NCBI RefSeq assembly: GCF_000165465.1
Contig: NC_017455.1
Coordinates: forward strand, 124,001-188,000
Length of the DNA: 64,000 bases
Source of the DNA: Halanaerobium praevalens DSM 2228
Lineage (GTDB): Bacteria; Bacillota; Halanaerobiia; Halanaerobiales; Halanaerobiaceae
Reading direction: 5' to 3'
The translations under genes were made by a program, and so were the position numbers. Shown here in pieces: positions 25,790 to 63,822 of this stretch. A model generated the notes under the pieces. It had not been told where the DNA came from, did not search any database, and saw only the letters and a program-made list of their open reading frames with translations. Each line of letters starts with the position of its first letter. The stretch's first letter is position 1.

Positions 25790-26680
25790 ATGAAAATTGA
25801 AAAATTAAAAATATTTATTACTTTAGTTGATCTAGAAAGTTATTCACTGACAGCTGATAAATTTGAAATCAGCCAACCAGCAGTAAGTATGCAGATTAAA
25901 TCATTAGAAGAATATTTTGCTACAAAATTATTTCAAAAAGAAAAAGGACAAATTAATCTTAGTCCAGCTGGCAAAATAGTTTATCAAGAAGCTAAAAAAA
26001 TTATTAAAAGATGGAGTTATTTGGAGCAAAAAGTAGAAAGTAAAAAAAATATGAAACTTAAAAAATTAAAAATTGCTTCTAGTACAATTCCTTCAGAATA
26101 TTTATTACCAGATATAATTTCTAATTTAAATAAGCTGATTGTTGATTTAAAAACAGAGGTTTCAGTTGGTGATAGTAGATCAATGATTAAACTTTTGGAA
26201 GCTGATGAAGTTGATTTGATTATTGTAGGTTCTAAACCTGAAAATAATAGATTTAAAAAATTAAAATTATATGATGATAGTTTAAGTTTAATAGTACCTT
26301 CAGGTAATAAGTTATTAAAAAAAGAAAAAGTATTTTTATCTGATTTACAAGCAGAAAATTTATTAATTAGAGAAGTAGGTTCTGGAACTAGGAAAGCAAC
26401 TCTATTTGCTTTTGAAGAAGCTCAACTTAAGTTAGAAGATTTTAATGTTATTAGCCAGTTAGGTAGTACTGAGGCTATAATTTCGGCAGTAGAATCTGGC
26501 TTAGGGATTTCTTTTATTTCACAAGTAGCAGCTCAAAAAGCCACTACTTGTGGTAGAGTTAAAGAAATTAAAATTCAAAATTTAAATTATTTAAGAGACT
26601 TTTATTTAGCATATAATCAAAATCGCCAAGATGATTTATTAATTAAGCAATTTATAAAAGCAGCTAAACAAAGCTTATAA
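25790..26680 (+). CDS. LysR-family transcriptional regulator
   Basis: 296-residue LysR protein. The N-terminal winged helix-turn-helix (about 1-60) has the motif SYSLTADKFEISQPAVSMQI; the periplasmic-binding-like effector domain covers about 90-290. It converges on the cysteine desulfurase gene and their ends overlap by six bases. Targets could be the neighbouring sulfur/selenium genes (several LysR proteins, such as CysL, act in sulfur metabolism) or be unrelated. No operator was identified. Confidence 0.88.
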   Translation: MKIEKLKIFITLVDLESYSLTADKFEISQPAVSMQIKSLEEYFATKLFQKEKGQINLSPAGKIVYQEAKKIIKRWSYLEQKVESKKNMKLKKLKIASSTIPSEYLLPDIISNLNKLIVDLKTEVSVGDSRSMIKLLEADEVDLIIVGSKPENNRFKKLKLYDDSLSLIVPSGNKLLKKEKVFLSDLQAENLLIREVGSGTRKATLFAFEEAQLKLEDFNVISQLGSTEAIISAVESGLGISFISQVAAQKATTCGRVKEIKIQNLNYLRDFYLAYNQNRQDDLLIKQFIKAAKQSL

Positions 26681-27823
26681 TAATTCTTTTAAAGCATTTA
26701 GAGTATATTCAATTTCTTTTTCTGTATTAAAATAGCCTAAGCTAAAGCGCAAGCTCCCAGCTGGGAAAGTTGACAGAGTTTGGTGAGCTAAAGGTGCACA
26801 GTGTAAGCCTGATCTGGTCATAATATTATATTTATTATCTAATTCATAACTTAGTTGGCCTAAATCCCTCTTACCAGCTGTAATCGAAAAAGTTGGTACC
26901 TGTTCTTTGAGGTTGGCTGGGCCAATTATTTTTATTTCAGGTATTTTTTTCAAACCAGCTAAAAATATTTTGGCTAGTTTTTGTTCATGTGTTCTGATAT
27001 TTTTGATTCCTGTTTCTTGAATAAATTCTACCCCTGCTTTCAAGCCATTAATCCCCATGGTATTCATTGTTCCACTCTCAAATTTATCAGGTAAAAAATT
27101 AGGTTGTTCAGCTAAATCAGATTTGCTACCAGTCCCACCTTCAATTAGAGGCTCTAATTCTGTAGCCATTTTTTTGCTAATTGCAAAACCACCTGTTCCA
27201 GTTGGTCCCATTAGAGCTTTATGGCCTGTAAAGGCCAAAAAATCAGCTTTTAAATTTTCGAAATCAAGCTCATAGATACCAGCTGTCTGAGCTGTATCAA
27301 CTAAATAATAAATATCATATTTAGCTGCAATTTTTCCAACTGCTTTAATTGGCATTAAGGTTCCACTAACATTTGAAGCATGTGTTAAGACAATTAATTT
27401 AGTTTTATCATTAATAGCAGCTTCAATTTGTTCAGGCTTGAGCCTTCCTTTTTTATCACATTTTATGTAATCTACTTTAATTAAATTCTTTTTTTCAAGA
27501 CTTTTTAAGGGTCTTAAAACAGAATTATGTTCCATTGTAGTTGTAATGACATGGTCTCCTGCTTTTAAAATCCCCTTAATCCCCATATTTAAAGCATAAG
27601 TTATATTATGAGTAAAAATTATTTGTTTAATATCCTGAACATTAAAAAGATCTGCTATTTTTTGTCTGGCATCTAAAATTATTCTACCAGCTGCTAAAGA
27701 ATCTTGATAGCCCCCTCTACCTGGACTACAATTAATATTATCATAATAATTTAAAATTGATTCCCTAACTAAATCAGCCTTAATCTTGGTTGTAGCTGCA
27801 TTATCAAGATAAACTTTATCCAT
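26675..27823 (-). CDS. Cysteine desulfurase family protein (EF2568-type)
   Basis: 382-residue class V aminotransferase-fold PLP enzyme. PLP-binding Lys202 lies in LAFTGHKALMGPTG; TMEHNSVLRP and TLMPIKAVGKIA match the cysteine desulfurase family; a candidate catalytic Cys is in SGLHCAPLAHQTL. Proteins of this subgroup (TIGR01977-like) are often encoded beside selD, yedF and DUF3343 genes, as seen here. A role in releasing sulfur or selenium from cysteine or selenocysteine for SelD or for a selenium-dependent hydroxylase is likely. GGGGGG precedes the ATG at 27823. Confidence 0.85.
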   Translation of the reverse strand: MDKVYLDNAATTKIKADLVRESILNYYDNINCSPGRGGYQDSLAAGRIILDARQKIADLFNVQDIKQIIFTHNITYALNMGIKGILKAGDHVITTTMEHNSVLRPLKSLEKKNLIKVDYIKCDKKGRLKPEQIEAAINDKTKLIVLTHASNVSGTLMPIKAVGKIAAKYDIYYLVDTAQTAGIYELDFENLKADFLAFTGHKALMGPTGTGGFAISKKMATELEPLIEGGTGSKSDLAEQPNFLPDKFESGTMNTMGINGLKAGVEFIQETGIKNIRTHEQKLAKIFLAGLKKIPEIKIIGPANLKEQVPTFSITAGKRDLGQLSYELDNKYNIMTRSGLHCAPLAHQTLSTFPAGSLRFSLGYFNTEKEIEYTLNALKELL

Positions 27824-27969
27824 CTTTATTCCCCCCCTGAAGCTTAATTTTACATTTTGAATAAAAAAATTCTTGAGTTCATTATAGGCTTTATTTAGAT
27901 ATTAATCAAGCAATATAATAAAAAATTATAAATATTATAAAAATACTTTATAATTAAAATAAACTGTGC

Positions 27970-27975
27970 TATAAT
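27970..27975 (+). promoter_or_regulatory. -10 element of the selenium/sulfur block
   Basis: tgtgcTATAAT gives a TG-extended -10; ttataa 16 bp upstream is a poor -35. It lies about 50 bp before the yedE coding region. Confidence 0.4.
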
Positions 27976-28023
27976 TTATGTGAAAGAAATCATTACCATG
28001 ATTAAATTTTGGGGGAGATAAAA

Positions 28024-29082
28024 ATTAGTAATAAAAAAAGTATTATCTTAGCTGGGGGATTTATAGGTGTTTTAGGTGGATTATTAGTGGTCTTTGGTAA
28101 TCCAGCTAATATGGGAATTTGCGTAGCTTGCTTTATCCGAGATATTGCTGGTGCGGTTGGATTACATAGAGCAGCAGTTGTTCAAAATATAAGGCCAGAA
28201 ATTATAGGTTTTATTCTGGGAGCTTTTTTGATTGCTCGCAGTACAGGTGAATTTAAAGTTAAAGGAGGTTCCTCACCGATCACAAGATTTGTAATAGCAA
28301 TGTTTGTGATGATTGGAGCTTTGGTATTTTTAGGATGTCCTTTAAGAATGGTGCTTAGATTAGCTGGCGGAGATTGGAACGCAATTGCCGGAATTATAGG
28401 TTTTGCTTTAGGAGTTTTAGCTGGTTCACAGCTGCTTAAAAAGGGTTTTACTTTGGGGAGAAATTATAAAATTAATCAAATAAATGGTTATATCTTACCA
28501 ATTATAGCTGTTGTTTTATTGATTTTTAGAATAGTAAGACCTTCTTTTATAATTTTTAGTGAGAAAGGTCCTGGTGCAAACTATGCATTTTGGGCAGTTG
28601 CACTTGCAGCAGGGATTATTGTTGGAGTCTTAGCTCAAAGAAGTCGGATTTGTATGGCAGGAGGAATTAGAGATCTTTATTTAATCAAAGATTCTCATTT
28701 AATTACTGGTTTTATTTCAATTTTTGTTTTTGCCTTTATAGTAAACTTAATTTTTGGTAATTTTAATCCTGGTTTTGCAGGCCAACCAGCAGCTCACAGT
28801 CAGTGGCTCTGGAATCTTTTAGGCATGTTTTTAACTGGTCTTGGTTCAGTAATGCTTGGAGGTTGTCCACTTCGTCAAACTATTTTGGCAGGTGAAGGTA
28901 ATACTGATTCAGCAGTAGCTTTTGTTGGTTATTTGGTGGGAGCAGCTATTTCTCATAACTTTGGATTGGCTGGATCAGGTAGTGGAGTTTCTATTAATGG
29001 TAGAATAGCTGTAATTATTGGGATTGTAACTTTATTTATAATTGCCTACAGCAGTATTCAATTTAATAAAAAAGCAGCATAA
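28024..29082 (+). CDS. yedE: YedE-family selenium/sulfur transporter (likely ATT start)
   Basis: About 352-residue membrane protein with around nine helices and two YeeE/YedE repeats, each with the motif GCPLR (LGCPLRMVLR, GGCPLRQTIL) plus NMGICVACFIRDIAG and SRICMAGGIRDLYL. This subgroup is associated with selenium metabolism and is proposed to import a reduced selenium or sulfur species. The longest frame starts at TTG 28009, but that codon has no Shine-Dalgarno and would lie on top of one. GGGGGAG at 28011-28017 is ideally placed for an ATT codon at 28024, and that start gives the family's usual N-terminus. A seven-codon ATG frame (27998-28021) overlaps the same site. Confidence 0.85.
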   Translation: MSNKKSIILAGGFIGVLGGLLVVFGNPANMGICVACFIRDIAGAVGLHRAAVVQNIRPEIIGFILGAFLIARSTGEFKVKGGSSPITRFVIAMFVMIGALVFLGCPLRMVLRLAGGDWNAIAGIIGFALGVLAGSQLLKKGFTLGRNYKINQINGYILPIIAVVLLIFRIVRPSFIIFSEKGPGANYAFWAVALAAGIIVGVLAQRSRICMAGGIRDLYLIKDSHLITGFISIFVFAFIVNLIFGNFNPGFAGQPAAHSQWLWNLLGMFLTGLGSVMLGGCPLRQTILAGEGNTDSAVAFVGYLVGAAISHNFGLAGSGSGVSINGRIAVIIGIVTLFIIAYSSIQFNKKAA

Positions 29083-29113
29083 ATATTTTTTTAAAACACT
29101 AAGGAGGAAAACA

Positions 29114-29899
29114 ATGAAAAAACAAAATATAATAGTGGTGGTTGTATTAGCAGTATTATTTTTATCAATTAATGTTATTGGGGCAGCCCAGGTGGGTGCT
29201 GAGGATTTAATAGTTGTAGGTACAGGTGGTAATTACAATCCATGGTGTTTCCAGAAAGATGGTAAATTACAAGGCTTCGAAATTGATGTTTGGCATGAGA
29301 TATCTAAAAGAACAGGTTATGAGGTTGAGTTTAAGATAGCTGAATTTAGTGGGTTAATGGGAATGTTAGATACAAATAAAATTGATACTGTTGCCCATCA
29401 AATGTCTATTACACCAGAAAGAGAAAAAAAATATGTCTTTACTAAACCTTATGCTTATAGTAAATATGATTTTATAGTAAAAAATGATAGTTCTTATCAA
29501 TCTATGGAAGATTTAAAAAATAAGAAAATCGGTGCCTGGTTGGGTGGAAATGGTCAAAGAACTTTAGAAAATTTAGATAAGGAAAAAGAACTTAAATTAA
29601 ATAAAAAATATTACGATGGTGCTCCTTTAGAAAAATTAGTTGAATCTGGAAGACTTGATGCTTGTTGGCAGTCAGCTGTTAAATCTAAATCTGTAATTGA
29701 ACAAGAAAATATGGATTTAAGATTAATGGGTGTGAATACAACTATTGGAACTGAAATTAATGCTTATGCGTTTACCAAAAATAGTAATAATCAAAAGAAA
29801 ATAACTGAAATAAATAAAGCTATTAATGCTATGCATAATGATGGAACATTATCTTTTTTATCAATGAAATGGTTTGATATTGAAACAACTACAAAATAA
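29114..29899 (+). CDS. Amino-acid ABC transporter, substrate-binding protein (family 3)
   Basis: 261-residue extracytoplasmic binding protein with an N-terminal hydrophobic signal sequence (about residues 5-28, no lipobox Cys). The type II binding-protein fold shows GFEIDVWHEISKRTGYEVEF, DTVAHQMSITPEREKKYVFTKPY and LKNKKIGAWLGGNGQ. The ATG at 29114 follows AAGGAGG; a longer frame from 29042 runs back into yedE and is rejected. With the permease and ATPase genes that follow it forms a complete polar-amino-acid importer. Sandwiched between selenium/sulfur genes, cystine, selenocystine or a related compound is the likely substrate. Confidence 0.9.
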   Translation: MKKQNIIVVVVLAVLFLSINVIGAAQVGAEDLIVVGTGGNYNPWCFQKDGKLQGFEIDVWHEISKRTGYEVEFKIAEFSGLMGMLDTNKIDTVAHQMSITPEREKKYVFTKPYAYSKYDFIVKNDSSYQSMEDLKNKKIGAWLGGNGQRTLENLDKEKELKLNKKYYDGAPLEKLVESGRLDACWQSAVKSKSVIEQENMDLRLMGVNTTIGTEINAYAFTKNSNNQKKITEINKAINAMHNDGTLSFLSMKWFDIETTTK

Positions 29900-30046
29900 T
29901 TAGTTGGAACTGCTTGCAATATAAAGGGAGATGGAGCTATTGCTTTAATGTTTACGGGCTTAAATAGAAAGCAGGCTGAATAATTTTATAAATTATTCTT
30001 TTAAATTCAATAATATATATAATAATGAAAGAGGCTGAAAATAATA

Positions 30047-30709
30047 ATGTTTGATATTAATTATGCTATAAATTTATTCCCATTTATGATTAAAAAATTA
30101 AATATAACCTTAAGTATATCTTTGTTAGCATTGATTTTTGGCTTAATAATAGCTTTGATTATTGCCTTTATCTGCAATTGCAAATTTAAAGGCTTATATT
30201 CTTTGGCAAAGATATATGTCTCATTTTTTAGGGGAACACCTTTAATTACTCAATTGTTTTTTCTCTATTTTGGTCTTCCACAAATCATACCTTTTTTTAA
30301 TCGAGTTAATGGTTTTACAATTGCGATAATTGGTCTGAGTCTGAATTCAGGAGCTTATATGTCTGAAGCCATTAGAGGTGCGATTTCATCTATTGATAAA
30401 GGTCAGATGGAAGCTTCTTTGTCTGTTGGGATGAGCTATTTTCAAGCTATGAGAAGAATAATAATGCCTCAAGCTGCCAGAGTAGCAATTCCAACCCTTT
30501 TTAATAGTTTTATTAATATTATAAAAGGAACAGCCTTAACTTTTACAATAGGAGTTACTGAAGTTATGGCTACAGCTAAGATGGAAGGAGCTTCTTCTTA
30601 CAGGTATTTTGAAGCATTTGCAAATGTAATAATAATATATTGGATTGTGGTTCAATTATTTAGCTTTATCCAGCAAAAAATTGAAATAAAGATGAGCAAA
30701 GCATATTAA
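30047..30709 (+). CDS. Amino-acid ABC transporter permease
   Basis: 220-residue HisM/GlnP-type inner-membrane permease with five predicted helices. [21 protein letters not shown] and the EAA loop ([31 protein letters not shown] region) mark the polar-amino-acid family. It is the membrane channel for the binding protein upstream and the ATPase 11 bp downstream. The 147-bp gap before it shows no gene. Confidence 0.92.
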
Positions 30710-30720
30710 GGTGGGTATAT

Positions 30721-31452
30721 ATGATAAAGATTGAAAATCTCTATAAAAAATTTAATGATCTTGAAGTACTAAAAGGAATTAACTTAGAAATTAAAAAAGG
30801 TGAAGTTATTGTAATAATTGGTCCATCAGGTACAGGTAAATCGACACTATTAAGATGCTTAAATTATTTAGAAAGTCCAGATAGTGGGATAATTGAAATT
30901 GGAAATATGAAAATAGATACTGAAAATGTGACTAAACATGAAATTTCTGCACTGAGAAGAAATAGTTCTATGGTTTTTCAAACTTATAATTTATTTAAAA
31001 ACAAAACAGCTTTAGAAAATATAACTGAATCTTTGATTACTGTAAAAAAAATAAATAAACAAAAAGCGGAAAAAATTGGACTAAATATCTTAGACCAGAT
31101 AGGTTTGAGTGATAAGAAAGATAATTATCCTTCTCAACTATCAGGAGGACAGAAACAAAGAATTGGAATTGGAAGAGCTATGGCAGTAAATCCTGAAGTG
31201 ATTTTATTTGATGAACCTACTTCATCCTTGGACCCTGAACTGGTTGGTGAAGTTTTAGATGTCATAAAAGCTCTAGCTGAAAAGAATATGACTATGTTAA
31301 TTGTTACTCATGAAATGGGTTTTGCTAAAGAAGCTGCAGATAGAGTTATTTTTATGGATGAAGGAAAAATAATTGAAGAAACTGAAGCAGATGTAATATT
31401 CGATAGTCCTCAAAATGAAAGAACAAAGAGATTTTTAAATAAAGTTTTATAA
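30721..31452 (+). CDS. Amino-acid ABC transporter ATP-binding protein
   Basis: 243-residue GlnQ-type ATPase. Walker [11 protein letters not shown]-loop VFQTYNLF, signature [16 protein letters not shown], Walker [15 protein letters not shown] and the H-loop [10 protein letters not shown] are all intact. It powers the importer formed with the two preceding gene products. ATG 30721 follows AAGGTGGG at the end of the permease gene. Confidence 0.95.
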
Positions 31453-31533
31453 CTCTAATTTTAAAAAATAAATATAATTCTGGTTATTAAATAGGATTTT
31501 AAGAATTAATAATTAATTTAGGAGGAAATGACA

Positions 31534-31737
31534 ATGAAAAAAGTAGATGCTCGTGGACGTTCTTGTCCTGAACCTGTTGTAATGACAAAAGAAGCATTAG
31601 AAAATAGTCAAGAAGATTTAGAGATACTTGTTGGAGAAGAAGTTGCAAAAGAAAATGTGATTCGTTTTGTCAGAAAATCAGGAGCTGAAGTTGAAGTAAG
31701 TAAAATTGAAGATGGCTATAAGCTAATTGTAAAATAA
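31534..31737 (+). CDS. TusA/SirA-like sulfur-carrier protein
   Basis: 67-residue TusA-fold protein with the conserved Cys in ARGRSCPEPVVMTKEAL. TusA-type proteins carry persulfide (or selenide) from a desulfurase to an acceptor. ATG 31534 is preferred to ATG 31528 because the GGAGG at 31521 leaves only two bases before the latter. It lies between the ABC importer and a DUF169 gene, and pairs logically with the cysteine desulfurase at 26675 and the longer YedF at 35050. Confidence 0.88.
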   Translation: MKKVDARGRSCPEPVVMTKEALENSQEDLEILVGEEVAKENVIRFVRKSGAEVEVSKIEDGYKLIVK

Positions 31738-31794
31738 TAATAAAAAAGTAGATTTTAAAAAGTTAAATCTACTATTGAGGAGGTGATTTACTTA

Positions 31795-32610
31795 ATGAAA
31801 CAAAACTTTGGTTATTCAGAGTTAATAGCAAGAGTAAATTCTGTATTAGAGCTTAAGCGAAATATAGTTGGAGTAAAATTTATTTTTAATAAAGAAGAAT
31901 TTGAAAAATATGGTGGAGCAGATTCTAAGAAAAAAAGATCTTATTGCAGAATGGTAAAAGAAGCAGCAGATGGACAAAAAATTACCGCTGATTTTGATAA
32001 TTTTTCTTGTTTTGCAGGAGCTAGAGCTTTGGGAATTGTAGAATTAGATGAAGCCTATAAATCAGGGGCATATTATGATGGCTGTGGTTTATATCAAGAT
32101 TCGGCTACTGCTAGAGCAGCTACAGATGCCATAGAAATTTGTGAGCATGATCTTTATGGAGTTCAGGTTAAACCCTTAAAAGATTTTAAACAGCGCCCAG
32201 ATATTATAATCATAATCACTAATTCATTTAATGCAATGAGATTAATTCAAGCTTATAGTCATCAATATGGACCATATAAAGAGTTTAAAATGCTGGGTAA
32301 TCAAGCAATCTGTTCTGAATGTACTGCTCAACCTTATAAAAATGATAATATTAGTTTTTCTCTTCTTTGTGCAGGGGCCAGAAAAAGTGGTTTTAAACAA
32401 GAAGAGGTAGGTCTTGGTATCAAATCTGAAAAATTTGAAGCTATAGTAGCTGGACTTTGTGCAACAGTTACTCCTGTTGAAAATAATCAAAACAAAAAAT
32501 TGATTGCAAAAAAGTTGCAAATAAATAAAATTAAGGATGTTAAATTAACTTATAATAAAAATTATGGAGATCAATTAAGACATTATGATTTAGATTTATT
32601 TTTAAGATAG
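31795..32610 (+). CDS. DUF169 family protein
   Basis: 271-residue protein with DUF169-like features: an early Cys in RSYCRMVKEA, NFSCFAGARALGI, GLYQDSATARAA and AICSECTAQPY. The function of the family is not established; its conserved cysteines suggest metal or cofactor binding, and it recurs near redox and selenium genes. ATG 31795 has GAGGAGGTG upstream; an upstream GTG at 31783 lies within that site. The neighbours (TusA-like protein, double-cubane protein with activase) suggest a role in a low-potential redox process. Confidence 0.75.
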   Translation: MKQNFGYSELIARVNSVLELKRNIVGVKFIFNKEEFEKYGGADSKKKRSYCRMVKEAADGQKITADFDNFSCFAGARALGIVELDEAYKSGAYYDGCGLYQDSATARAATDAIEICEHDLYGVQVKPLKDFKQRPDIIIIITNSFNAMRLIQAYSHQYGPYKEFKMLGNQAICSECTAQPYKNDNISFSLLCAGARKSGFKQEEVGLGIKSEKFEAIVAGLCATVTPVENNQNKKLIAKKLQINKIKDVKLTYNKNYGDQLRHYDLDLFLR

Positions 32611-32691
32611 TTAATTTTAATTTAATATTTTACATAGATTAAATTTAAAATAATTTTTTAAATTAAAAAATCTAATTGGGGGTTAATTAAA

Positions 32692-33843
32692 ATGAAAAAT
32701 ATCGAAGAAATTTTAGCTGGTTTAGACGGAGAACTTAAAGGACATGGTCCGATAGCAATGAAAGATATGGTAGAAAAAAAAGGGAAAAATGTTGTAGGTA
32801 CATATTGTGTTTTTACTCCTTATGAAGTAATTAGAGCTGCTGATGCAGTACCTGTAACTTTATGTAGTACTAGCAATGATACTATTGATGAAGCTGAAAA
32901 AGATTTACCAAGAAATTTATGTCCTTTAATTAAATCAAGTTATGGTTTTGCTATTACGGATAAATGTCCCTATTTTCATTTTGCCGATCTGATTGTTGGA
33001 GAAACAACCTGTGATGGTAAAAAGAAAATGTATGAATATTTAGATGAGGTAACTCCAGTTCATGTAATGCAATTACCTCAATCAGCAAAAAGGCAGTCAG
33101 ATTTCGATTTTTGGAAAAAGGAAGTATTAGTTTTAAAAGAAACTTTAGAAGAAAAATTTGAAACTGAAATTACTGAAGAGCGGCTGGCTCAAGAAATAGA
33201 AATTAAAAATGAAGAAAGAAATACCTTGAAAGAATTTTATCAGTTAGCAAAACTAAATCCTTCCCCAATTTATGGAACGGAAATTTTCAAAGTTTTAAAT
33301 ATTTCTAATTATACTTTTGATAAGGAAATTGCTAACAAAAGAACTAAAGCAGTTACAGCAGATATTTTAGAAAGATATAATCAAGGTGAAAAAAGAATTA
33401 GTGAATCTGCACCTCGAATTTTAGTTACTGGTTGTCCAATGGGTAAGGCTACCTTAAAAGTGATTGAAGCAATTGAAAATAATGGCGGTTCTGTAGTTTG
33501 TTTAGAAAACTGTACTGGTTTAAAACCAAATGAAGAAACTGTAGACCCTACTAAAAGTCCAATTGATGCTATTGCAGAAAAATATTTAAATACACCTTGT
33601 TCTTGTATGAGTCCTAATGACAATCGAGTTGATTTAATTAATAGATTAGTCTCAGAATATGAAGTTGATGGTGTAGTAGATATGGTTTTACAGGCTTGTC
33701 ATACTTATAATGTTGAAACAAAAAGAATAAAAGATGAGCTGAAAGGATCAAATACTGCTTATATTAATATTGAAACTGATTATTCTCAGTCAGATACAGG
33801 TCAATTAGAAACTCGTTTAACTGCATTTTTAGAAATGCTTTAG
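32692..33843 (+). CDS. 2-hydroxyacyl-CoA dehydratase D-component family / double-cubane cluster protein
   Basis: 383-residue protein of the HgdB/FldB family, YjiM subgroup. Conserved Cys residues in VGTYCVFTPYE, RNLCPLIKSSYGF, DKCPYFHFADL and GETTCDGKKKMYEYL would ligate an iron-sulfur cluster. Proteins of this subgroup with an adjacent activase bind an [8Fe-9S] double-cubane cluster and reduce small molecules at low potential. There is only one dehydratase-type subunit, unlike the two-subunit 2-hydroxyacyl-CoA dehydratases, and no acyl-CoA gene nearby, so the double-cubane role fits better. The substrate is unknown. GGGGG precedes the ATG. Confidence 0.82.
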   Translation: MKNIEEILAGLDGELKGHGPIAMKDMVEKKGKNVVGTYCVFTPYEVIRAADAVPVTLCSTSNDTIDEAEKDLPRNLCPLIKSSYGFAITDKCPYFHFADLIVGETTCDGKKKMYEYLDEVTPVHVMQLPQSAKRQSDFDFWKKEVLVLKETLEEKFETEITEERLAQEIEIKNEERNTLKEFYQLAKLNPSPIYGTEIFKVLNISNYTFDKEIANKRTKAVTADILERYNQGEKRISESAPRILVTGCPMGKATLKVIEAIENNGGSVVCLENCTGLKPNEETVDPTKSPIDAIAEKYLNTPCSCMSPNDNRVDLINRLVSEYEVDGVVDMVLQACHTYNVETKRIKDELKGSNTAYINIETDYSQSDTGQLETRLTAFLEML

Positions 33844-33855
33844 AGGGGTAATAAA

Positions 33856-34620
33856 ATGTACTATATTGGAATTGATATTGGTTCTGTTGCTTGTAAAGGA
33901 ATTTTATTTAAAAATGGAATTATTGATAAAAGCTTAGCTCCAACTGGTTGGAATCCTCAAAAAAGTGGAGAGCAAACCCTTAATTATTTATTAGAAGCTA
34001 ATAATTTGCAAGCTAAAGATATTAAAGGTGTTGTTGCAACTGGTTATGGTCGAGTTTCACAGAAATTTGCTGATAAGACTGTAACTGAAATAACCTGTCA
34101 TGGTAAAGGTGGCTATTATTTAAATAATGAAATTAGAACAATTGTAGATATTGGAGGCCAAGATAGCAAAGTTATTTCGCTTAATGAAGCTGGACAAGTA
34201 GTTGATTTTGTGATGAATGATAAATGTGCTGCTGGAACTGGCAAATTTTTAGAGATGACAATTAATTCTTTAGAAGAGCAAATTGATAATTTAGATAAGT
34301 TGATTAAGGGTGAAAAAAAAGCAAATATTAGCAGTATGTGTGCTGTTTTTGCAGAATCTGAAATAATTTCTCTTTTAGCAGATGGAGTTTCTAAAAGTGA
34401 AATTGCTGGTGGAATTATAGATTCTATCATTAACCGGATTAATATTTTATTAAGCAAAATAACTTTTAGAGAAAAGGTTCTTTTTACAGGGGGCTTAGCC
34501 CAGAGTCAGGTTATTAAAAATGAACTAAGTAAAAAATTAGATACACAAGTTTTAAGTTATGCAGATTCTCAATTTGCAGGAGCAATTGGTGGAGCTTTAA
34601 TAGCTAGTAATCTGGGATGA
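33856..34620 (+). CDS. Activase ATPase of the dehydratase/double-cubane protein (HgdC/YjiL type)
   Basis: 254-residue ASKHA-fold ATPase that injects electrons into its partner on ATP hydrolysis. Phosphate loop YYIGIDIGSVACKG, the second motif VDIGGQDSKV, and two cysteines (in DKCAAGTGKF and SSMCAVFAESE) that hold the single [4Fe-4S] cluster at the dimer interface are present. It follows the partner gene by 12 bp with GAGGGG before the ATG. The pair forms an ATP-driven low-potential reductase module. Confidence 0.9.
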   Translation: MYYIGIDIGSVACKGILFKNGIIDKSLAPTGWNPQKSGEQTLNYLLEANNLQAKDIKGVVATGYGRVSQKFADKTVTEITCHGKGGYYLNNEIRTIVDIGGQDSKVISLNEAGQVVDFVMNDKCAAGTGKFLEMTINSLEEQIDNLDKLIKGEKKANISSMCAVFAESEIISLLADGVSKSEIAGGIIDSIINRINILLSKITFREKVLFTGGLAQSQVIKNELSKKLDTQVLSYADSQFAGAIGGALIASNLG

Positions 34621-34768
34621 ATTTTAAATTTTGCTTTTATACTTTCTCATTTATGATATAATAAAAAAAGTAAGAAGCCATTAACTTAGCTTGATTTTTA
34701 TAGTTTAATTTAAAAAATAATTTAAGATTTAATTTAAAAAAGTAAATCAGATTAAAGGAGAAATAATA

Positions 34769-35023
34769 TTGGAAACTTATAATTTAATTTTCACTTTTTA
34801 TTCAACTCACCTTGCTTTAGAATTTGAAAATGTTTTAAAAGCAAATCAGATTGATGTTAATATTATTCCAGTCCCGAGACAAATTAGTTCTTCCTGTGGT
34901 CTATCTGGTAAGATTAAATTGCAAGATTTGGAGCAAGTTAAAAAACTAGCTGCTGAAAATAAAATAGAATATGAAGATATTTATCAAGTTAAAGATCAAG
35001 ATTTTAAAAAAATTTCTAATTAA
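34769..35023 (+). CDS. DUF3343 putative Se/S carrier-like protein
   Basis: 84-residue protein, family DUF3343, with the conserved Cys in PVPRQISSSCGLSGKI. The family is regularly found beside yedF, selD and EF2568-type genes and is thought to carry sulfur or selenium, but this has no firm experimental basis that I can cite. TTG start at 34769 with AAAGGAG eight bases upstream. The about 150 bp before it are AT-rich. Confidence 0.82.
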   Translation: METYNLIFTFYSTHLALEFENVLKANQIDVNIIPVPRQISSSCGLSGKIKLQDLEQVKKLAAENKIEYEDIYQVKDQDFKKISN

Positions 35024-35049
35024 AAAATAGTTTAAAGGAGGAGTCGCTA

Positions 35050-35628
35050 ATGAAAGAGATAGATGCTAAAGGACTTGCTTGTCCTAAGCCAGTTGTACTT
35101 GCTAAAAAAGCGATTAATTCGAATCAAGAAGTTTTAGTAATTGTTGATAATCAAACTGCTGCTAATAATTTGAAAAAATTAGCAAAAAAAATGGGAGCAG
35201 AAGTTTCAGTTGTAGAAGAATCAGAGACAGAATTTAAAGTCATGTTTAAAAAATTAAAAACTACTAATCAAGCAGATTCTGAGGTGAATTCTAAGCCCAG
35301 TGCTAAAACATTTTTGATTGCTGCTGATAAAATGGGCACAGGAGAAGCTGAATTAGGTAAAATCTTAATTAAAGGCTTTATCTCTACGATCAAAGAACTT
35401 GAGCCTCTACCACAAAAGATTATTTTTATTAATTCTGGAGTTAAATTAGCTGTAAATGAGGAAATTATTCCTTATTTAAAAGAGCTTATCCAAAAAGAAG
35501 TAGAAATACTTTTATGTGGAACCTGTGTTGATTATTATGGACTGCAAGCAGAAATTGAATTAGGAGAAATTAGTAATATGTACGAAATAGCTTCTGCTTT
35601 AAATACTGATCAAGTTGTAAGAATCTAA
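35050..35628 (+). CDS. yedF: Selenium metabolism protein YedF (TusA-DsrE fusion)
   Basis: 192-residue two-domain protein. Residues 1-75 are a TusA-like domain with Cys11 in GLACPKPVVLAKKA; residues about 90-190 are a DsrE-like domain with CGTCVDYYGL. This YedF architecture tracks with selenium-utilising bacteria and with selD. It could hand selenium to SelD or to a downstream acceptor. AAAGGAGG lies before the ATG, and selD starts 49 bp after its stop. Confidence 0.88.
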   Translation: MKEIDAKGLACPKPVVLAKKAINSNQEVLVIVDNQTAANNLKKLAKKMGAEVSVVEESETEFKVMFKKLKTTNQADSEVNSKPSAKTFLIAADKMGTGEAELGKILIKGFISTIKELEPLPQKIIFINSGVKLAVNEEIIPYLKELIQKEVEILLCGTCVDYYGLQAEIELGEISNMYEIASALNTDQVVRI

Positions 35629-35677
35629 TTTTAATAAATATGATAAAATAAATAATTTACAAAGAGTTGGTGTTAAA

Positions 35678-36718
35678 ATGGAAAAAATAAAATTAACTGA
35701 TTATAGTAAAACTTCTGGTTGAGCAGCTAAAATGGGCCCTCGGGCTTTGGCGCAGGTACTGCGTCACGTTAATTTTCCTGCTGATCCAGAAAAATTGTTA
35801 ATTGGACTTGATAAAGCAGATGATGCTGCTGTTTATAGTTTAACAGATGAACTAGCCTTAATTCAGACTTTAGATTTTTTTACTCCAGTAGTAGATGATC
35901 CCTATTTATTTGGTCAGATTGCTGCAGCTAATGCTTTAAGTGATGTTTATGCTATGGGTGGCAAACCTATTTTGGCGATGAATATAGTTGGCTTTCCTTC
36001 CTGTTTAGAGACTGAGGTCCTCTCTCAAATTTTACAGGGAGGAGCAGATAAAGTTAAAGAAGCAGGTGCCAGTTTATGTGGTGGTCATACAGTTGTAGAT
36101 GAAGAACCTAAATATGGACTTTCAGTTACTGGAACAGTTGCTCCAGCTGATTTACTCAGCAACTCTGGAATTAAAGCAGATGATTTAATCATTTTAACTA
36201 AACCTTTAGGGACTGGAGTTATGATTACAGCCCTTAAAGCAGGATTTGCTAAGAGTGATCAAAGTAATCCAGCAGTGAAATCAATGTTGACTTTAAATAA
36301 TATTGCTTTAGAATATTTTGCTGAATATCAAATCAATGCTTGTACAGATGTAACAGGTTTTGGCCTAATTGGTCATTTGCTTGAGATGTCTGAAAACAGT
36401 AGTTTAGAAATTGAAATTGATGCTCCAGAAATCCCTATTTTTGAGGGCGTTAGAGATTTCGCTGAAACAGGTCTTTTACCGGCTGGTGCTTATAAGAATC
36501 AAGAAAATTATCAGGAATTTGTAGTCGAAGAAGGAAAAAGAGACCAAACTCTTTATGATTTAATGTATGATCCTCAAACTTCAGGTGGACTTTTAATTTC
36601 AGTAGCTGCAGAAGATGCTGCAGAGTTATTAATTGATCTTTATGCTGCAGATATTGAGGCTGCTGTAATTGCTAAAGCTAAAAAAGGTGAAAAAGGTATT
36701 AAAATAAAATGGAATTAA
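35678..36718 (+). CDS. selD: Selenide, water dikinase SelD (selenoprotein)
   Basis: 346-residue enzyme making selenophosphate from selenide and ATP, the donor for Sec-tRNA. The frame begins at ATG 35678 and reads an in-frame TGA at 35720-35722 as Sec15 in the motif TSGUAAKMGP, the catalytic position (Cys or Sec in the family) followed by the essential Lys18. GLDKADDAAVY, LIQTLDFFTPVVDDP and GGHTVVDEEPKYGLS are further SelD signatures. A candidate SECIS hairpin follows the TGA. A caller that stops at TGA would start the gene falsely at 35732. SelD thus depends on its own product, allowing feedback by selenium status. Confidence 0.95.
35720..35764 (+). promoter_or_regulatory. SECIS element in selD
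   Basis: TGA at 35720-35722 is followed 28 bases later by a perfect stem cgcag-gta-ctgcg (35751-35763), which puts G-U-containing apical bases about 33 nt from the UGA, within the bacterial SECIS range bound by SelB. The hairpin is seen; SelB binding is inferred. Confidence 0.6.
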
Positions 36719-36865: not shown

Positions 36866-36902
36866 AATCATGATTGACATATAATCATGATTATGCTATT
36901 AT
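36866..36902 (+). promoter_or_regulatory. grdA promoter with duplicated aatcatgatt operator
   Basis: A near-ideal sigma-A promoter: TTGACA (36874-36879), 17-bp spacer, TATTAT (36897-36902) with TG extension. The 10-bp palindrome aatcatgatt occurs twice, at 36866-36875 (overlapping the -35) and 36883-36892 (in the spacer), 17 bp apart. A repressor bound here would block RNA polymerase. The TetR regulator at 41882 is a candidate, but its own upstream region lacks this palindrome. Confidence 0.7.
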
Positions 36903-36948
36903 AAAATTGTGAAAATGATGAAAATAAAGAATAAAGGAGGTGCAACTT

Positions 36949-37419
36949 ATGTTAGAAGGTAAAAAGATCGCTATCTTAGGTGATCGCGATGGTATTCCTG
37001 GGCCAGCAATTGAAGAATGCATGGAAACAACTGGTGCAGATGAAGTCGTTTTTACTACAACTGAGTGCTTTGTCTGAACAAGCGCAGGAGCTATGGACCT
37101 AGAAAATCAGCAGAGAATAAAAGATCTTGCTGATAAACATGGTGCGGAAAATCTAGTTGTTATCTTAGGTGGAGCAGAAGCAGAAGCTTCTGGTTTAGCC
37201 TGTGAAACAGTAACAAATGGAGATCCAACCTTTGCTGGTCCTTTAGCAGGAGTTCCGTTGGGACTCGCGTGTTATCATGTCGTGGAGCCAGAAATCAAAG
37301 CTGAGATTGAGGAAGATGTTTATGAAGAACAAATCAGCATGATGGAAATGGTAATAGATGTTGAAGCTATTGTTGAAGAGGTAAAAACCTATCGCGAGAA
37401 GTATTCAGAGTATATTTAA
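36949..37419 (+). CDS. grdA: Glycine/sarcosine/betaine reductase selenoprotein A
   Basis: 156-residue selenoprotein that carries the carboxymethyl-selenoether intermediate from protein B to protein C. The frame begins at ATG 36949 behind AAAGGAGGTG and reads TGA at 37075-37077 as Sec43 in the redox motif [13 protein letters not shown] (Cys40-x-x-Sec43). The C-terminal part ([22 protein letters not shown] region) matches GrdA. Length is standard. A gene model starting at 37093 would miss the N-terminal third and the active site. Protein A is regenerated by the thioredoxin system, here encoded at 42726-44283. Confidence 0.96.
37075..37096 (+). promoter_or_regulatory. SECIS element in grdA (weak hairpin)
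   Basis: After the TGA, ca-agc-gcagga-gct-atg can fold into a short stem with one bulged A and a loop containing GG. The fold is less convincing than those in selD and grdH, but its position fits a bacterial SECIS. Confidence 0.45.
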
Positions 37420-38817: not shown

Positions 38818-40137
38818 ATGAAAAAAGCAATTGTATATTTAAACCAGTTTTTTGGTCAAATTGGTGGAGAAGATGTTGCAGATCATGCTCCTGAAATTAG
38901 AGAAGAAAAGGTTGGAGCAGCAATGCTTTATAATCAGTTATTAGAAGCAGAAGTTACTCATACAGTTATTTGTGGAGATAATTTTATGGGAAGTAAGACT
39001 GAAGAAGCTGTAGAAACTATCCTTGATTTTTTAAGGGATTTAGAATTTGATATCTTTTTTGCTGGCCCAGCATTTCAAGCAGGACGTTATGGAATGGCCT
39101 GTGGTGAGATTGGAAAAGCAGTAAAAGAAGAATTTGATGTGCCTGTAATTTCATCAATGAATATTGAAAATCCCGGTGTTGAAGTATTTAAAAAAGATAT
39201 TTATATCTTCCCCGGTGGTCATAGTGCAGCCAAAATGAAAGATGATGTTACTGAAATGACTAAGTTTGGGAATAAGATTCTCAAAGGAGAAGAATTATTG
39301 CCAGCAGAAGAAGAAGGTTATTATACTCGAGGTATTAGACATCAATATTTCTTAGAAGATCAAACTCCAGCTACTGAAAGAGCAATTGAAATGCTGCTTA
39401 AAAAAATTAAAGGAGAAGAATTTACAAGTGAATTACCTATTCCTGAATTAGATCGGGTAGAGATTGCTCCTGCAATTAAAGATTTAAGTAAAGCCGAAAT
39501 TGCTTTAGTTACTTCTGGAGGTATTGTGCCTGTTGATAACCCAGATAAAATTCAATCTGCCTCAGCAACTAGATGGGGTAAATATGAGATTAGTGGTATG
39601 GAAAAATTAGAAAATAGAGAAGCAGAAGCATTTAAAACTATTCATGCTGGTTTTGATCCAGCTGCAGCTGATGCTGATCCAAATGTAGTTGTTCCAGTTG
39701 ATGCAGTGCGTCAATATGAAAAAGAAGGCAAAATTGGTAAATTACATGAATATTTCTATTCAACAGTAGGAACTGGTACTACCCAGGGAGAAGCTGCTAG
39801 AATGGGAAGAGAAATTGCTCAAGAATTACAAGATGCCAATGTTCAAGCAGTAATTTTAACATCCACTTGAGGTACCTGTACACGTTGCGGTGCAACAATG
39901 GTGAAAGAAATTGAAAGAGCTGGTTTTCCAGTTGTTCAGATGGCAAATTTAATTCCTGTAGCAAAAACTGTTGGTGCTAACAGAATAGTTCCAACTATCT
40001 CTATCCCTTATCCACTGGGAGATCCTTCTACAAGTAAGGAAGAACAATGGGATCTTAGATATCATAGAGTTGGAGTAGCTTTAGATTCTCTAACAACTGA
40101 AATCGATGAGCAAACAGTTTTTGAAGTAGAAGTGTAA
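38818..40137 (+). CDS. grdH: Betaine reductase protein B, selenoprotein subunit GrdH (GrdB/GrdF family)
   Basis: 439-residue selenoprotein of the protein B complex. The frame reads TGA at 39868-39870 as Sec351 in the motif STUGTCTRCGATMVKEIERAG, shared by GrdB, GrdF and GrdH. The C-terminal NLIPVAKTVGANRIVPTI and IPYPLGDPSTSKEE resemble the betaine/sarcosine type more than glycine-specific GrdB. ATG 38818 follows GGGGAGGTG. A SECIS hairpin with a GGT loop follows the TGA. Without recoding the gene would appear as two pieces (to 39870, and 39898-40137). It attacks the GrdI-bound substrate and passes the carboxymethyl group to GrdA. Confidence 0.92.
39868..39896 (+). promoter_or_regulatory. SECIS element in grdH
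   Basis: TGA (39868-39870) followed by gttgc-ggt-gcaac (39884-39896), a perfect 5-bp stem with the loop GGT about 19 nt from the UGA, matching the SelB-binding hairpin pattern. Confidence 0.75.
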
Positions 40138-47603: not shown

Positions 47604-48692
47604 CTAAGCAGATTGTTGTTCTAAATATTTATTAGCTATATTACGACTTGCATTTAAATCAGAGTGGATATGATTACCACACTCACAAGAGTATAGATTA
47701 GCTTTGCGGTTAGATTTTTTAACTTTAGCACATCTAGAACAACTCTGGGAAGTGTACTTTGGATTTATATATTCCACCTTCATCCCAGCTAATTCAGCTT
47801 TGTATTCAATAAACTGTTGAAGTTGATAAAAAGTCCAGCTATGGATGTTTCTATCAGCTCTATTAAGACTCTTAGCAGTATTTCGGATATTCTCTAGATT
47901 CTCCATAATTATAGAACCAACTTGCTTTTGCACAGCAAAATTAATAAGCTGGCGACTAATTTTATGGTTTAAATCAGTCATCCATCTCTGCTCTTTGTCA
48001 TTAATATTTTTAATAGCTTTATTTTTTTTAGATTGACCCAGTTTTTTTCTTAACATACGATACTTTTTGCGGATAAAACCTGCCTGTTTACCATTGTAGA
48101 ATTGGCGATTAATCTCTTTGCCTTGAGGAGTTTTAACACTAGCAACTGCTAATTGGCGAAGCCCTATATCAATTCCCATTAAATTAGAGTTAGTGGTTTT
48201 TTTATCAGCAATTTTAATTGTTACAGCAAAATACCATTTACCTCTCTTGTAGAAGAGACTGGCTTTACCCAATTTGCAGCCACTATCGATATGCTGCCGC
48301 AGTTCTTCAAACCTTTCAGTCTGCTTAACAGGAAAAGCGAATCTTTTGCATTTGCTGGTATAAAGCGGAATTGAAATTATATGATGATCAATCTTATAAT
48401 TTTGATTATTATAGCAAATAGGTTGATTCTCTTTAAACTCTATATTTTCTTTTTTAGAGTTAGACTTTAAAAACTGTTTATAGAGTGCTTTAACTTCTCT
48501 AATATTCTGATTTTTAACAGCAGAGGGAAGGTTAAGCTCTTTAAAATCAGCAGAACTCAAGTTAATTTCTCCTGTTTTAAGTTTTGCAGCAATAGCCTGA
48601 CGATTCTTAACTACTTCTACAATGTTATTTAAGAATATATTTTCTTTTCTTTTAGTTGGTTTTAACAACTCTAAAATATAGGTTAGCTGCAT
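47604..48692 (-). CDS. tnpB: RNA-guided endonuclease TnpB
   Basis: 362-residue TnpB, the RNA-guided nuclease ancestral to Cas12. RuvC catalytic residues Asp175 (LMGIDIGLRQLAV), Glu264 (IIMENLENIR) and Asp345 (HIHSDLNASRN) are present, with the zinc-binding Cys318, 321, 336 and 338. The ATG at 48692 has AAAGGTG upstream; a GTG at 48701 that overlaps the tnpA stop is the alternative. Nothing indicates decay. It probably promotes retention of the element by cutting the vacated donor site. Confidence 0.93.
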   Translation of the reverse strand: MQLTYILELLKPTKRKENIFLNNIVEVVKNRQAIAAKLKTGEINLSSADFKELNLPSAVKNQNIREVKALYKQFLKSNSKKENIEFKENQPICYNNQNYKIDHHIISIPLYTSKCKRFAFPVKQTERFEELRQHIDSGCKLGKASLFYKRGKWYFAVTIKIADKKTTNSNLMGIDIGLRQLAVASVKTPQGKEINRQFYNGKQAGFIRKKYRMLRKKLGQSKKNKAIKNINDKEQRWMTDLNHKISRQLINFAVQKQVGSIIMENLENIRNTAKSLNRADRNIHSWTFYQLQQFIEYKAELAGMKVEYINPKYTSQSCSRCAKVKKSNRKANLYSCECGNHIHSDLNASRNIANKYLEQQSA

Positions 48693-48697
48693 ATTAA

Positions 48698-49087
48698 TCA
48701 CCTTTGATTTTCAATGTAGTGTTGGATAGTTTCAGAACTCACATTACCTGCAGTAGCTACAAAATATGCTCTAGTCCAAATAGAACCTTTAATATTCAAC
48801 TCTGGAAAGTGCTTTGATATTCTCCCTCCAGTAGTACCTTTAATGATATTCATTAGCTTACTGGGAGAATACTTAGGCAAAGCTGATATAAAAAGGTGTA
48901 TATGATCTGGCATTATTTCAGTAGCCAATACTTCAAATTTATGCTTATCAGCTAATTCATTGATAGTATCTAAGGTTAATTGTTTAATTTTAGGATTATC
49001 TAAAATATGTTTTCTATATTTAGGAATCCATATAAAATGATAATTTAAAAGAAACTTTGCATGTCTTGTGTTTTTATAGGTATTCAT
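48698..49087 (-). CDS. tnpA: IS200/IS605 Y1 transposase TnpA
   Basis: 129-residue single-strand transposase with the HUH motif His62-Ile-His64 in PDHIHLFISALP and the catalytic Tyr124 near the C-terminus (SSETIQHYIENQ). It excises and inserts single-stranded DNA as a circle. AGGAG precedes the ATG at 49087. A promoter TTGAAA-N18-TATAAT lies upstream on the minus strand (49120-49150). Length is slightly below the usual 130-155 but all motifs are present. Confidence 0.93.
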   Translation of the reverse strand: MNTYKNTRHAKFLLNYHFIWIPKYRKHILDNPKIKQLTLDTINELADKHKFEVLATEIMPDHIHLFISALPKYSPSKLMNIIKGTTGGRISKHFPELNIKGSIWTRAYFVATAGNVSSETIQHYIENQR

Positions 49088-49365: not shown

Positions 49366-49464
49366 GGGAGTGGCTATATCCATGGTGGATATCCTGGACT
49401 TCAAATCCAGTGGCAGGCAGGCGGACCTGTCTGTGGTGGGTTCGATTCCCACACATTCCCGCCA
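49366..49464 (+). tRNA. selC: tRNA-Sec (anticodon TCA)
   Basis: 99-nt tRNA with anticodon TCA at 49401-49403 in the ctgga-ct-TCA-aa-tccag arm. It has an extended D-stem (tatcc-atggt-ggata), a long variable arm (caggcagg-cgga-cctgtctg), the T-arm gtggg-ttcgatt-cccac and an encoded CCA. The long acceptor plus variable arm are typical of selenocysteine tRNA. It decodes the UGA in grdA, grdH and selD. selA and selB are not in this window. The flanking sequence (49247-49365) shows nothing else. Confidence 0.96.
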
Positions 49465-53227: not shown

Positions 53228-53321
53228 TTTAAAGGAGTTTAGAAAATTAAAAATAAATCTAACTTGACTTTAAAAAATCATTCTGTTAAGATGAAATTGT
53301 AAATTAAAAATTAAATTTGTA

Positions 53322-53389
53322 CCTCATATAATAGTGGGAATATGGCCCACAAGTCTCTACCGGATACCGTAAATAGTCCGACTATGAGG
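53322..53389 (+). promoter_or_regulatory. Guanine (purine-class) riboswitch aptamer
   Basis: P1 is cctcata / tatgagg. P2 gtggg / cccac has the loop aatatgg; the core strand gtctctacc follows; P3 carries the loop ccgtaaat; and the J3/1 strand ccgactatg has C at the discriminating position (guanine rather than adenine, position 74). All core residues of the purine aptamer are present. It lies upstream of the de novo purine operon in tandem with a ykkC-class aptamer. Confidence 0.92.
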
Positions 53390-53392
53390 GAA

Positions 53393-53546
53393 GTGTACCT
53401 AGGTTCCCGCAGTATAAGGGTGATAATTCTAGTTCTTTCGTTTGTGAAAAGACTATAACTATAAATCTTTAGCAAGCGCTGGCTGGTCCGAGCGGTACAG
53501 ATATTGTTATATTACACCGAAGGGATAAAAGCCCAGGCGGGGAGGT
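53393..53546 (+). promoter_or_regulatory. ykkC-class riboswitch, PRPP type by context
   Basis: The conserved ykkC landmarks appear in order: cctaggttcccg (from 53398), gctggtccgagcgg (about 53482-53495), and acaccgaagggataaaagccc (ending 53534). A ykkC RNA directly downstream of a guanine aptamer and ahead of purine synthesis genes matches the described tandem guanine-PRPP riboswitch. PRPP specificity is assigned from this context; ppGpp is the alternative ligand of the nearest subtype. Confidence 0.82.
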
Positions 53547-63652: not shown

Positions 63653-63740
63653 TATAGAATTTAATTTTAACTAGCTAAATAAAGGTTTTTAAAGCTGAAT
63701 ATCGAAATTAGAAAGTAACAGTAAAATAATATTTTAATAA

Positions 63741-63822
63741 AAGCAAAACAATTGAAAAATTGTGACGCAAAGATCTGAATCTAAAGCTAAATTAGCAATG
63801 ATTGTCAGATTCACCTCAGGAT
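63741..63822 (+). promoter_or_regulatory. c-di-GMP-I (GEMM-I) riboswitch aptamer
   Basis: Landmarks match the GEMM-I class in order: a GCAAA lead-in (63743), hairpin caatt-GAAA-aattg with the GAAA tetraloop, then the strictly conserved gACGCAAAG (63764-63772), then CTAAA (63781-63785), a short gcta-aat-tagc hairpin, and the pairing strand ttgtcagattcacc. This parallels the Vibrio Vc2 RNA. A terminator follows directly. Confidence 0.85.

Follow-up and report, generated by a model that had tools for sequence, protein, structure and literature searches.

Gene content of the locus and its variable slot

How does a bacterium bring selenium into the cell and pass it on to SelD? Prokaryotes have so far yielded no importer specific for selenium (PMC13188914; PMC11097638). 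We addressed the question with a gene block of Halanaerobium praevalens DSM 2228, which lies in a window of 64,000 nucleotides (NC_017455.1, positions 124,001-188,000; all coordinates are those of the window), and identified its genes by profile searches against curated cut-offs (TIGRFAM/NCBIfam, Pfam, and PRK). On balance, and with modest confidence, we favor reading the block as a selenium-acquisition locus that feeds SelD, beside selenium-demanding betaine reductase genes, with the roles for uptake cassette, carriers, and double-cubane cluster protein (DCCP) that we propose below. A preliminary description had counted ten selenium- and sulfur-handling genes at 26675-36718. The block proved real, with 12 genes in that interval, each backed by a profile match, and it extends to a convergent LysR-type regulator of the selenium type (LysR_Se) at 25790-26680. 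Every family named at that stage (EF2568-type desulfurase, YedE, ATP-binding cassette [ABC] importer, TusA, DUF169, DCCP, activase, DUF3343, YedF, and SelD) was recovered (Table 1). Betaine reductase genes adjoin the block downstream of selD.

The genes for YedE, YedF, DUF3343, LysR_Se, and a selenocysteine lyase-like protein all lie near selD and score above cut-off (TIGR04112, TIGR03527, PF11823, NF040786, and TIGR01977), which is the gene set of Lin et al. 2015. The lyase-like sclA product passed the broader TIGR01977 and reached 456.5 bits against NF040779 (SclA), under the cut-off of 525. As in the window, clusters in Lin et al. 2015, such as that of Slackia heliotrinireducens, combine YedE, YedF, LysR_Se, DUF3343, selenocysteine lyase, a SirA-like protein, and SelD; unlike here, the text of that paper contains neither the term ABC transporter nor Halanaerobium, and the reductase and DUF169 appear in its table only (PMC5322559). 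Because this gene set is found again in other genomes, both related and unrelated, we regard the block as more than a chance assembly.

The slot between sclA and the DCCP gene varies among Halanaerobium loci, and the promoter beside sclA is retained. In the window, the slot holds YedE, a cystine-type ABC importer, TusA, and DUF169. The G171 locus (L139) has YedE and the same importer with a dicarboxylate-type symporter, TusA, and two unrelated-looking genes, without DUF169. In G172 (L002), the slot is filled by an energy-coupling factor (ECF) S component of the CD3073 type, a TudS-like CD3072 protein, a C-GCAxxG-C-C protein, an SLAC1 channel, and DUF169; G174 (L137/L138) has this ECF/TudS set and, after it, UROD methyltransferases, a corrinoid protein, RACo, a methionine-type ABC importer, and DUF169. 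This comparison shows a constant core (the SclA-type desulfurase; DCCP, activase, DUF3343, and YedF; usually SelD) joined to an exchangeable uptake cassette. Such an architecture behind a conserved promoter, seen in Halanaerobium, is a new finding. Since relatives exchange the importer and keep the rest, the import by each cassette can be tested by comparing sister species.

The four-gene set of ECF S component CD3073, TudS-like desulfidase CD3072, C-GCAxxG-C-C protein, and SLAC1-type channel is itself recurrent (L002:7181-9861, L137:4902-7532, and L140:6872-9515) and adjoins DCCP and selenium genes. It possibly serves the salvage of selenium- or sulfur-substituted nucleobases.

Promoter region and palindromes

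The divergent promoter region beside sclA is alike in all four Halanaerobium loci that we aligned, with a mean column identity of 71% and a nearly identical -10 element with its flanks. In the window it comprises an AT-rich box (27926-27944), a -10 TATAAT (27970-27975), and an imperfect palindrome, AATCAT-TACC-ATGATT (27988-28003). The palindrome AATCATGATT follows the -10 element in three of the four loci, the window copy being the imperfect one, and two further copies lie in the grdA promoter. The single-contig genome of 2,309,262 bases has exactly one copy of the sequence TAATCATGATTA, at grdA. Judging by these sites, one regulator may be common to the sclA/yedE-side and grdA promoters, and LysR_Se is a candidate for it. 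A scan for LysR-type T-N11-A operators returned several weak candidates in AT-rich DNA, of which no single one was decisive.

The cystine-type importer

The E. coli cystine system TcyJ-TcyL-TcyN (FliY-YecS-YecC) is the top match of the permease and ATPase and ranks second for the substrate-binding protein. In contrast to the E. coli system, the window importer is linked to selenium genes, and all three components missed the equivalog cut-offs for the cystine ABC importer (Table 1). The nearest solved chain to the substrate-binding protein is 9d5w. The same cystine-type importer also lies between DCCP and activase in G175 (L140), followed by selA, selB, SclA, and SelD, and in G194 (L142) it lies between two DCCP/activase pairs with selA and selB, adjoining a PatB C-S lyase (509 bits). 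That the importer is reordered yet retained with DCCP argues for a joint function, and the neighboring C-S lyase argues for a cysteine-type substrate.

When Methanococcus maripaludis was depleted of selenium, YedE rose by 5.3 log2 units, an amino-acid ABC permease annotated YecS by 3.9, and TusA/D by 4.5, and the Sdm methyltransferases rose as well; knock-outs did not pin down a transporter (PMC11097638). These selenium-responsive genes are the same module types as those of the window block.

The double-cubane reductase and its activase

We assign the window protein to the double-cubane reductase family and predict the cluster itself from its cysteine motifs. It aligns over 357 residues to the solved chain 6eno, with the motifs YCVF, RNLCP, CPYF, TTCDG, CSCMSPN, and QACH common to both, and is 54% identical to E. 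coli YjiM. The activase gene starts 12 bp downstream, and its product matches the solved activators 4eht and 1hux and the DCCP partner 7yyl_E. Structures 6eno/7yyl are presumably those of the double-cubane cluster protein of Jeoung and Dobbek 2018. That protein and E. coli YjiM/YjiL share family, cysteine motifs, and partner activase with the window pair, which differs in its setting, a selenium locus that also encodes carriers and SelD. We know of no substrate for the double-cubane protein.

DCCP and SelD co-occur closely. Among 150 phylum genomes, DCCP was found in 53 and SelD above cut-off in 105; SelD was present in 52/53 DCCP carriers versus 53/97 of the others (Fisher p about 1e-9), and the sole carrier without it is a genome 81% complete. 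The 59 class genomes gave SelD in 11/11 with DCCP versus 30/48 others, and in a control set of 14 genomes both proteins exceeded cut-off in the same two, E. coli and M. jannaschii. Linkage on the chromosome is also frequent: a selenium marker lies within 10 kb in 27/68 DCCP neighborhoods, spanning 15/35 family codes, compared with 2/38 control loci, and 16 of the 68 have two or more markers. The commonest selenium neighbors of DCCP are DUF3343, SclA, YedE, and YedF. In the DCCP tree, a well-supported set of 11 members, each with a selenium marker, stands opposite the Halanaerobiaceae set across the deepest split. Because the linkage covers 15 family codes and both sides of the tree, we consider it broad, and the concern that the pair might adjoin selenium genes in this lineage only is answered by unrelated families in two well-separated parts of the tree.

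The preliminary description had held that a role for DCCP beside selenium genes was not described. The association is in fact already in print and is not new. In Lin et al. 2015, the STRING partners given for YedE, YedF, DUF3343, or LysR_Se include a dehydratase-like subunit and activase, and Table 1 of that paper lists an activase, two "2-hydroxyglutaryl-CoA dehydratase subunits," and a DUF169 protein (PMC5322559); DCCP has also been termed provisionally linked to selenium (PMC10418091). This half of our result is thus not novel, since earlier papers already count DCCP, activase, TusA-like protein, and DUF169 among the partners of YedE/YedF. Type I mlp gene clusters resemble the window in bringing DCCP and its reductase, selenocysteine lyase, sel genes, and grd genes into one neighborhood (PMC10418091); the window differs in its cassette of YedE and cystine-type ABC importer, and no UROD-type methyltransferases, corrinoid protein, or RACo/Ram activator are among its block genes. 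The same slot in G174 (L137) does contain a UROD methyltransferase/corrinoid cluster.

The DUF169 protein

In the tree, the window DUF169 protein falls in a small subgroup with members in G014, G076, G264, G343, G423, and G414, as well as in Acetoanaerobium noterae (tblastn, 35% identity). An importer part of the MetNIQ, SsuABC, or ECF type lies within 3.5 kb in 8/9 subgroup loci outside the window versus 2/43 other DUF169 loci, a comparison biased toward the subgroup, since window and subgroup neighborhoods supplied the probe proteins. This link to sulfur/selenium-type importers appears to be new. SelD is present in all nine subgroup genomes checked (G000, G014, G076, G172, G174, G264, G343, G414, and G423), which is little above the phylum rate.

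For DUF169, the concern about restriction to this lineage is answered only in part: only 3/59 class genomes carry a close relative of the window protein, all three in selenium loci, which speaks for a narrow distribution; G414 and A. noterae are independent cases that speak against it. In G414 (L183), the subgroup protein occurs with MetNIQ, DUF3343/TusA, YedE, SclA, and LysR_Se (312 bits), and in A. noterae (L157) with SsuABC, CobW, and a methyltransferase/corrinoid/RACo cluster of the methyl-selenide type. A search of genome contigs with a single DUF169 protein as query returned one locus only. We ruled out the whole DUF169 family as a selenium marker: several carriers are SelD-negative, and markers lie in 2/38 neighborhoods outside the subgroup.

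Two cysteines are invariant over 34 DUF169 proteins and four within the subgroup. The AlphaFold2 model has a pLDDT of 91.8 and a pTM of 0.89, and no PDB homologue was found by sequence (best phmmer E 0.99) or by fold (Foldseek on this model, E <= 0.001). The importer-associated subgroup might represent a new kind of cytosolic cysteine protein whose fold is absent from solved structures. Such a protein would remove selenium or sulfur from compounds delivered by several unrelated importer types, and in Halanaerobium it would belong to exchangeable selenium-uptake cassettes behind one conserved promoter. We put this forward tentatively and regard it as rather doubtful.

Three further observations concern the family or its genomes. 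Another DUF169 subgroup (L032, L034-L037) has a C-terminal, two-cluster ferredoxin-like extension with CxxCxxxCP motifs and its own conserved neighbors. In family f25 (L182:7199-11318, L181), an ECF transporter operon with CbiQ, a double ATPase, and a PF09819 component ends in a DUF169 gene. The A. noterae sequence NZ_CP154629.1 (2.63 Mb; L157, L158) is labeled a plasmid and is chromosome-like in gene content and length.

SelD and the betaine reductase genes

From its start at 35678, the selD frame reads through a UGA at 35720-35722, and SelD is therefore itself a predicted selenoprotein. One TGA is found in nearly all above-cut-off SelD genes of the phylum sample. Rfam gave no selenocysteine insertion sequence (SECIS) in selD, and the hairpin after the UGA is unexceptional (z -1.26). 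With tRNA-Sec at 49366 of the window and selA elsewhere in the genome, a selenocysteine system is present. Within the window, selD, grdA, and grdB each contain UGA. In the betaine reductase block, grdA is followed by grdB-like genes, which likewise contain UGA and have a SECIS_4 match at 39871; next come a BCCT-like transporter gene, recognized by eye, and then TrxB, TrxA, and component C.

Several Halanaerobiaceae genomes have a second selenium locus (SelD, YedF, DUF3343, and often SclA) apart from the DCCP locus (L146-L150, L152). In G172, the grd-linked copy is reduced to a SelD fragment (L002 near 16.3 kb).

Proposed pathway and alternatives

The assignments of the genes, their linkage, and the conserved promoter are direct observations; from gene context, we infer the substrates and the order of steps as follows. 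YedE and the cystine-type ABC importer would import selenium, most probably in the form of selenocystine or some other selenium compound of the cysteine type, which DUF169 would handle as a cytosolic, cysteine-rich partner of the importer. The SclA-like enzyme would remove selenium as perselenide, and TusA, DUF3343, and YedF would carry it bound to their cysteines. ATP-driven DCCP would give very low-potential electrons to reduce oxidized or carrier-bound selenium to selenide, which SelD would convert to selenophosphate for the neighboring selenoproteins. A regulator acting on the palindrome common with grdA would match selenium supply to demand. A pathway in which an organic Se/S compound is imported or an oxidized Se species is reduced, with relay through carrier cysteines to SelD, had been suggested at the outset; a selenium locus with importer, carriers, SelD, and a recurrent DCCP/activase pair makes it plausible and supports it in part.

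Several points weigh against this pathway. What the importer, DUF169, and DCCP act on is guessed from gene context, the importer scores under each of the equivalog cut-offs, and import of cystine as an ordinary sulfur nutrient would fit as well. G171 carries the same importer block without DUF169, and the DUF169 family overall, with its several SelD-negative carriers, is not bound to selenium. No selenium marker lies within 10 kb of 41/68 DCCP loci, and we know of no such selenium cluster around E. coli YjiM. As promoter conservation was observed inside a single genus, shared ancestry accounts for part of it.

The block could instead be a sulfur locus, in which the importer serves cystine uptake, sulfur for Fe-S clusters and thiolation is handed on by desulfurase, TusA, and carriers, and SelD, YedE, and YedF are neighbors with sulfur-like chemistry. 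The best matches of permease and ATPase and the near-best of the substrate-binding protein, the PatB C-S lyase in L142, and the MetQ- and SsuA-type importers adjoining DUF169 would all suit it. We nevertheless consider it unlikely, given that the families of YedE (TIGR04112), LysR_Se, and YedF are tied to organisms with SelD (PMC5322559), that DCCP almost never occurs without SelD, and that the same gene types react to selenium depletion in M. maripaludis (PMC11097638).

It seems distinctly unlikely that DCCP and its activase use ATP-driven electron transfer to reactivate a selenoenzyme or corrinoid protein that was oxidized or damaged, instead of reducing a free or carrier-bound selenium compound. 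Relatives of the activase do drive electrons into dehydratases and reductases, DCCP comes after the corrinoid methyltransferase cluster in L137/L138, and the selenoprotein operon grd lies downstream; however, the commonest selenium neighbors of DCCP belong to the delivery side and not to one particular selenoenzyme, and DCCP is also found in the SelD-positive E. coli and M. jannaschii, which to our knowledge have no glycine/betaine reductase. It is very unlikely that DCCP acts on a substrate unrelated to selenium and co-occurs with SelD because both mark anaerobes: most DCCP loci do lack selenium neighbors, but DCCP is present in just one of the 45/150 phylum genomes without above-cut-off SelD, the incomplete genome noted above, and it adjoins SclA/DUF3343 in unrelated families. 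As a putative selenium-acquisition locus, the block offers concrete candidates for a selenium-specific importer and for the DCCP substrate, and supplies a context for DUF169.

Features of the window

Table 1. Features of the block and adjoining sites, in window coordinates
Feature	Position	Strand	Basis
LysR_Se regulator, convergent with sclA	25790..26680	+	NF040786 "selenium metabolism-associated LysR," 270 bits, cut-off 250
EF2568/SclA-type pyridoxal phosphate desulfurase (selenocysteine lyase-like)	26675..27823	-	TIGR01977, 484 bits, cut-off 377
Conserved divergent promoter region beside sclA	27869..28015	unassigned (.)	Alignment of four Halanaerobium loci; promoter-like site
YedE family putative selenium transporter, start codon uncertain	28009..29082	+	TIGR04112, 490 bits, cut-off 200
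Polar amino-acid substrate-binding protein, cystine-type by close matches	29114..29899	+	PF00497, 124 bits; PRK11260, 129 bits, under cut-off 312
ABC permease (YecS/TcyL-like)	30047..30709	+	Best family PRK15100 cystine permease, 199 bits, under cut-off 300
ABC ATPase (TcyN-like)	30721..31452	+	Best family PRK11264, 332 bits, under cut-off 406
Stand-alone TusA-like carrier	31528..31737	+	PF01206, 65 bits; closest NCBIfam is YedF N-terminal part
DUF169 protein, importer-associated subgroup	31783..32610	+	PF02596, 187.9 bits, gathering cut-off 27; subgroup by tree
Double-cubane-cluster reductase (DCCP/YjiM-like)	32692..33843	+	NF040772, 526.5 bits, cut-off 350
Activase (YjiL-like ASKHA ATPase)	33856..34620	+	TIGR00241, 255 bits, cut-off 125
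DUF3343 Se/S carrier-like	34769..35023	+	PF11823, 88 bits
YedF (TusA and DsrE domains)	35050..35628	+	TIGR03527, 200 bits, cut-off 110
SelD, predicted selenoprotein	35678..36718	+	TIGR00476, 389 bits; frame open with TGA as Sec
grdA promoter, two AATCATGATT palindromes flanking -35	36866..36902	+	Promoter-like site and palindrome comparison
grdA selenoprotein, first gene of downstream betaine reductase block	36940..37419	+	NF040748, 273 bits

Outside the block, a TnpB-like gene with a small upstream open reading frame (IS200/IS605-type) lies at 47604-49087, a few hundred bases before the tRNA-Sec gene. Rfam also identified a purine riboswitch at 53304-53404 and a c-di-GMP-I riboswitch at 63732-63818.

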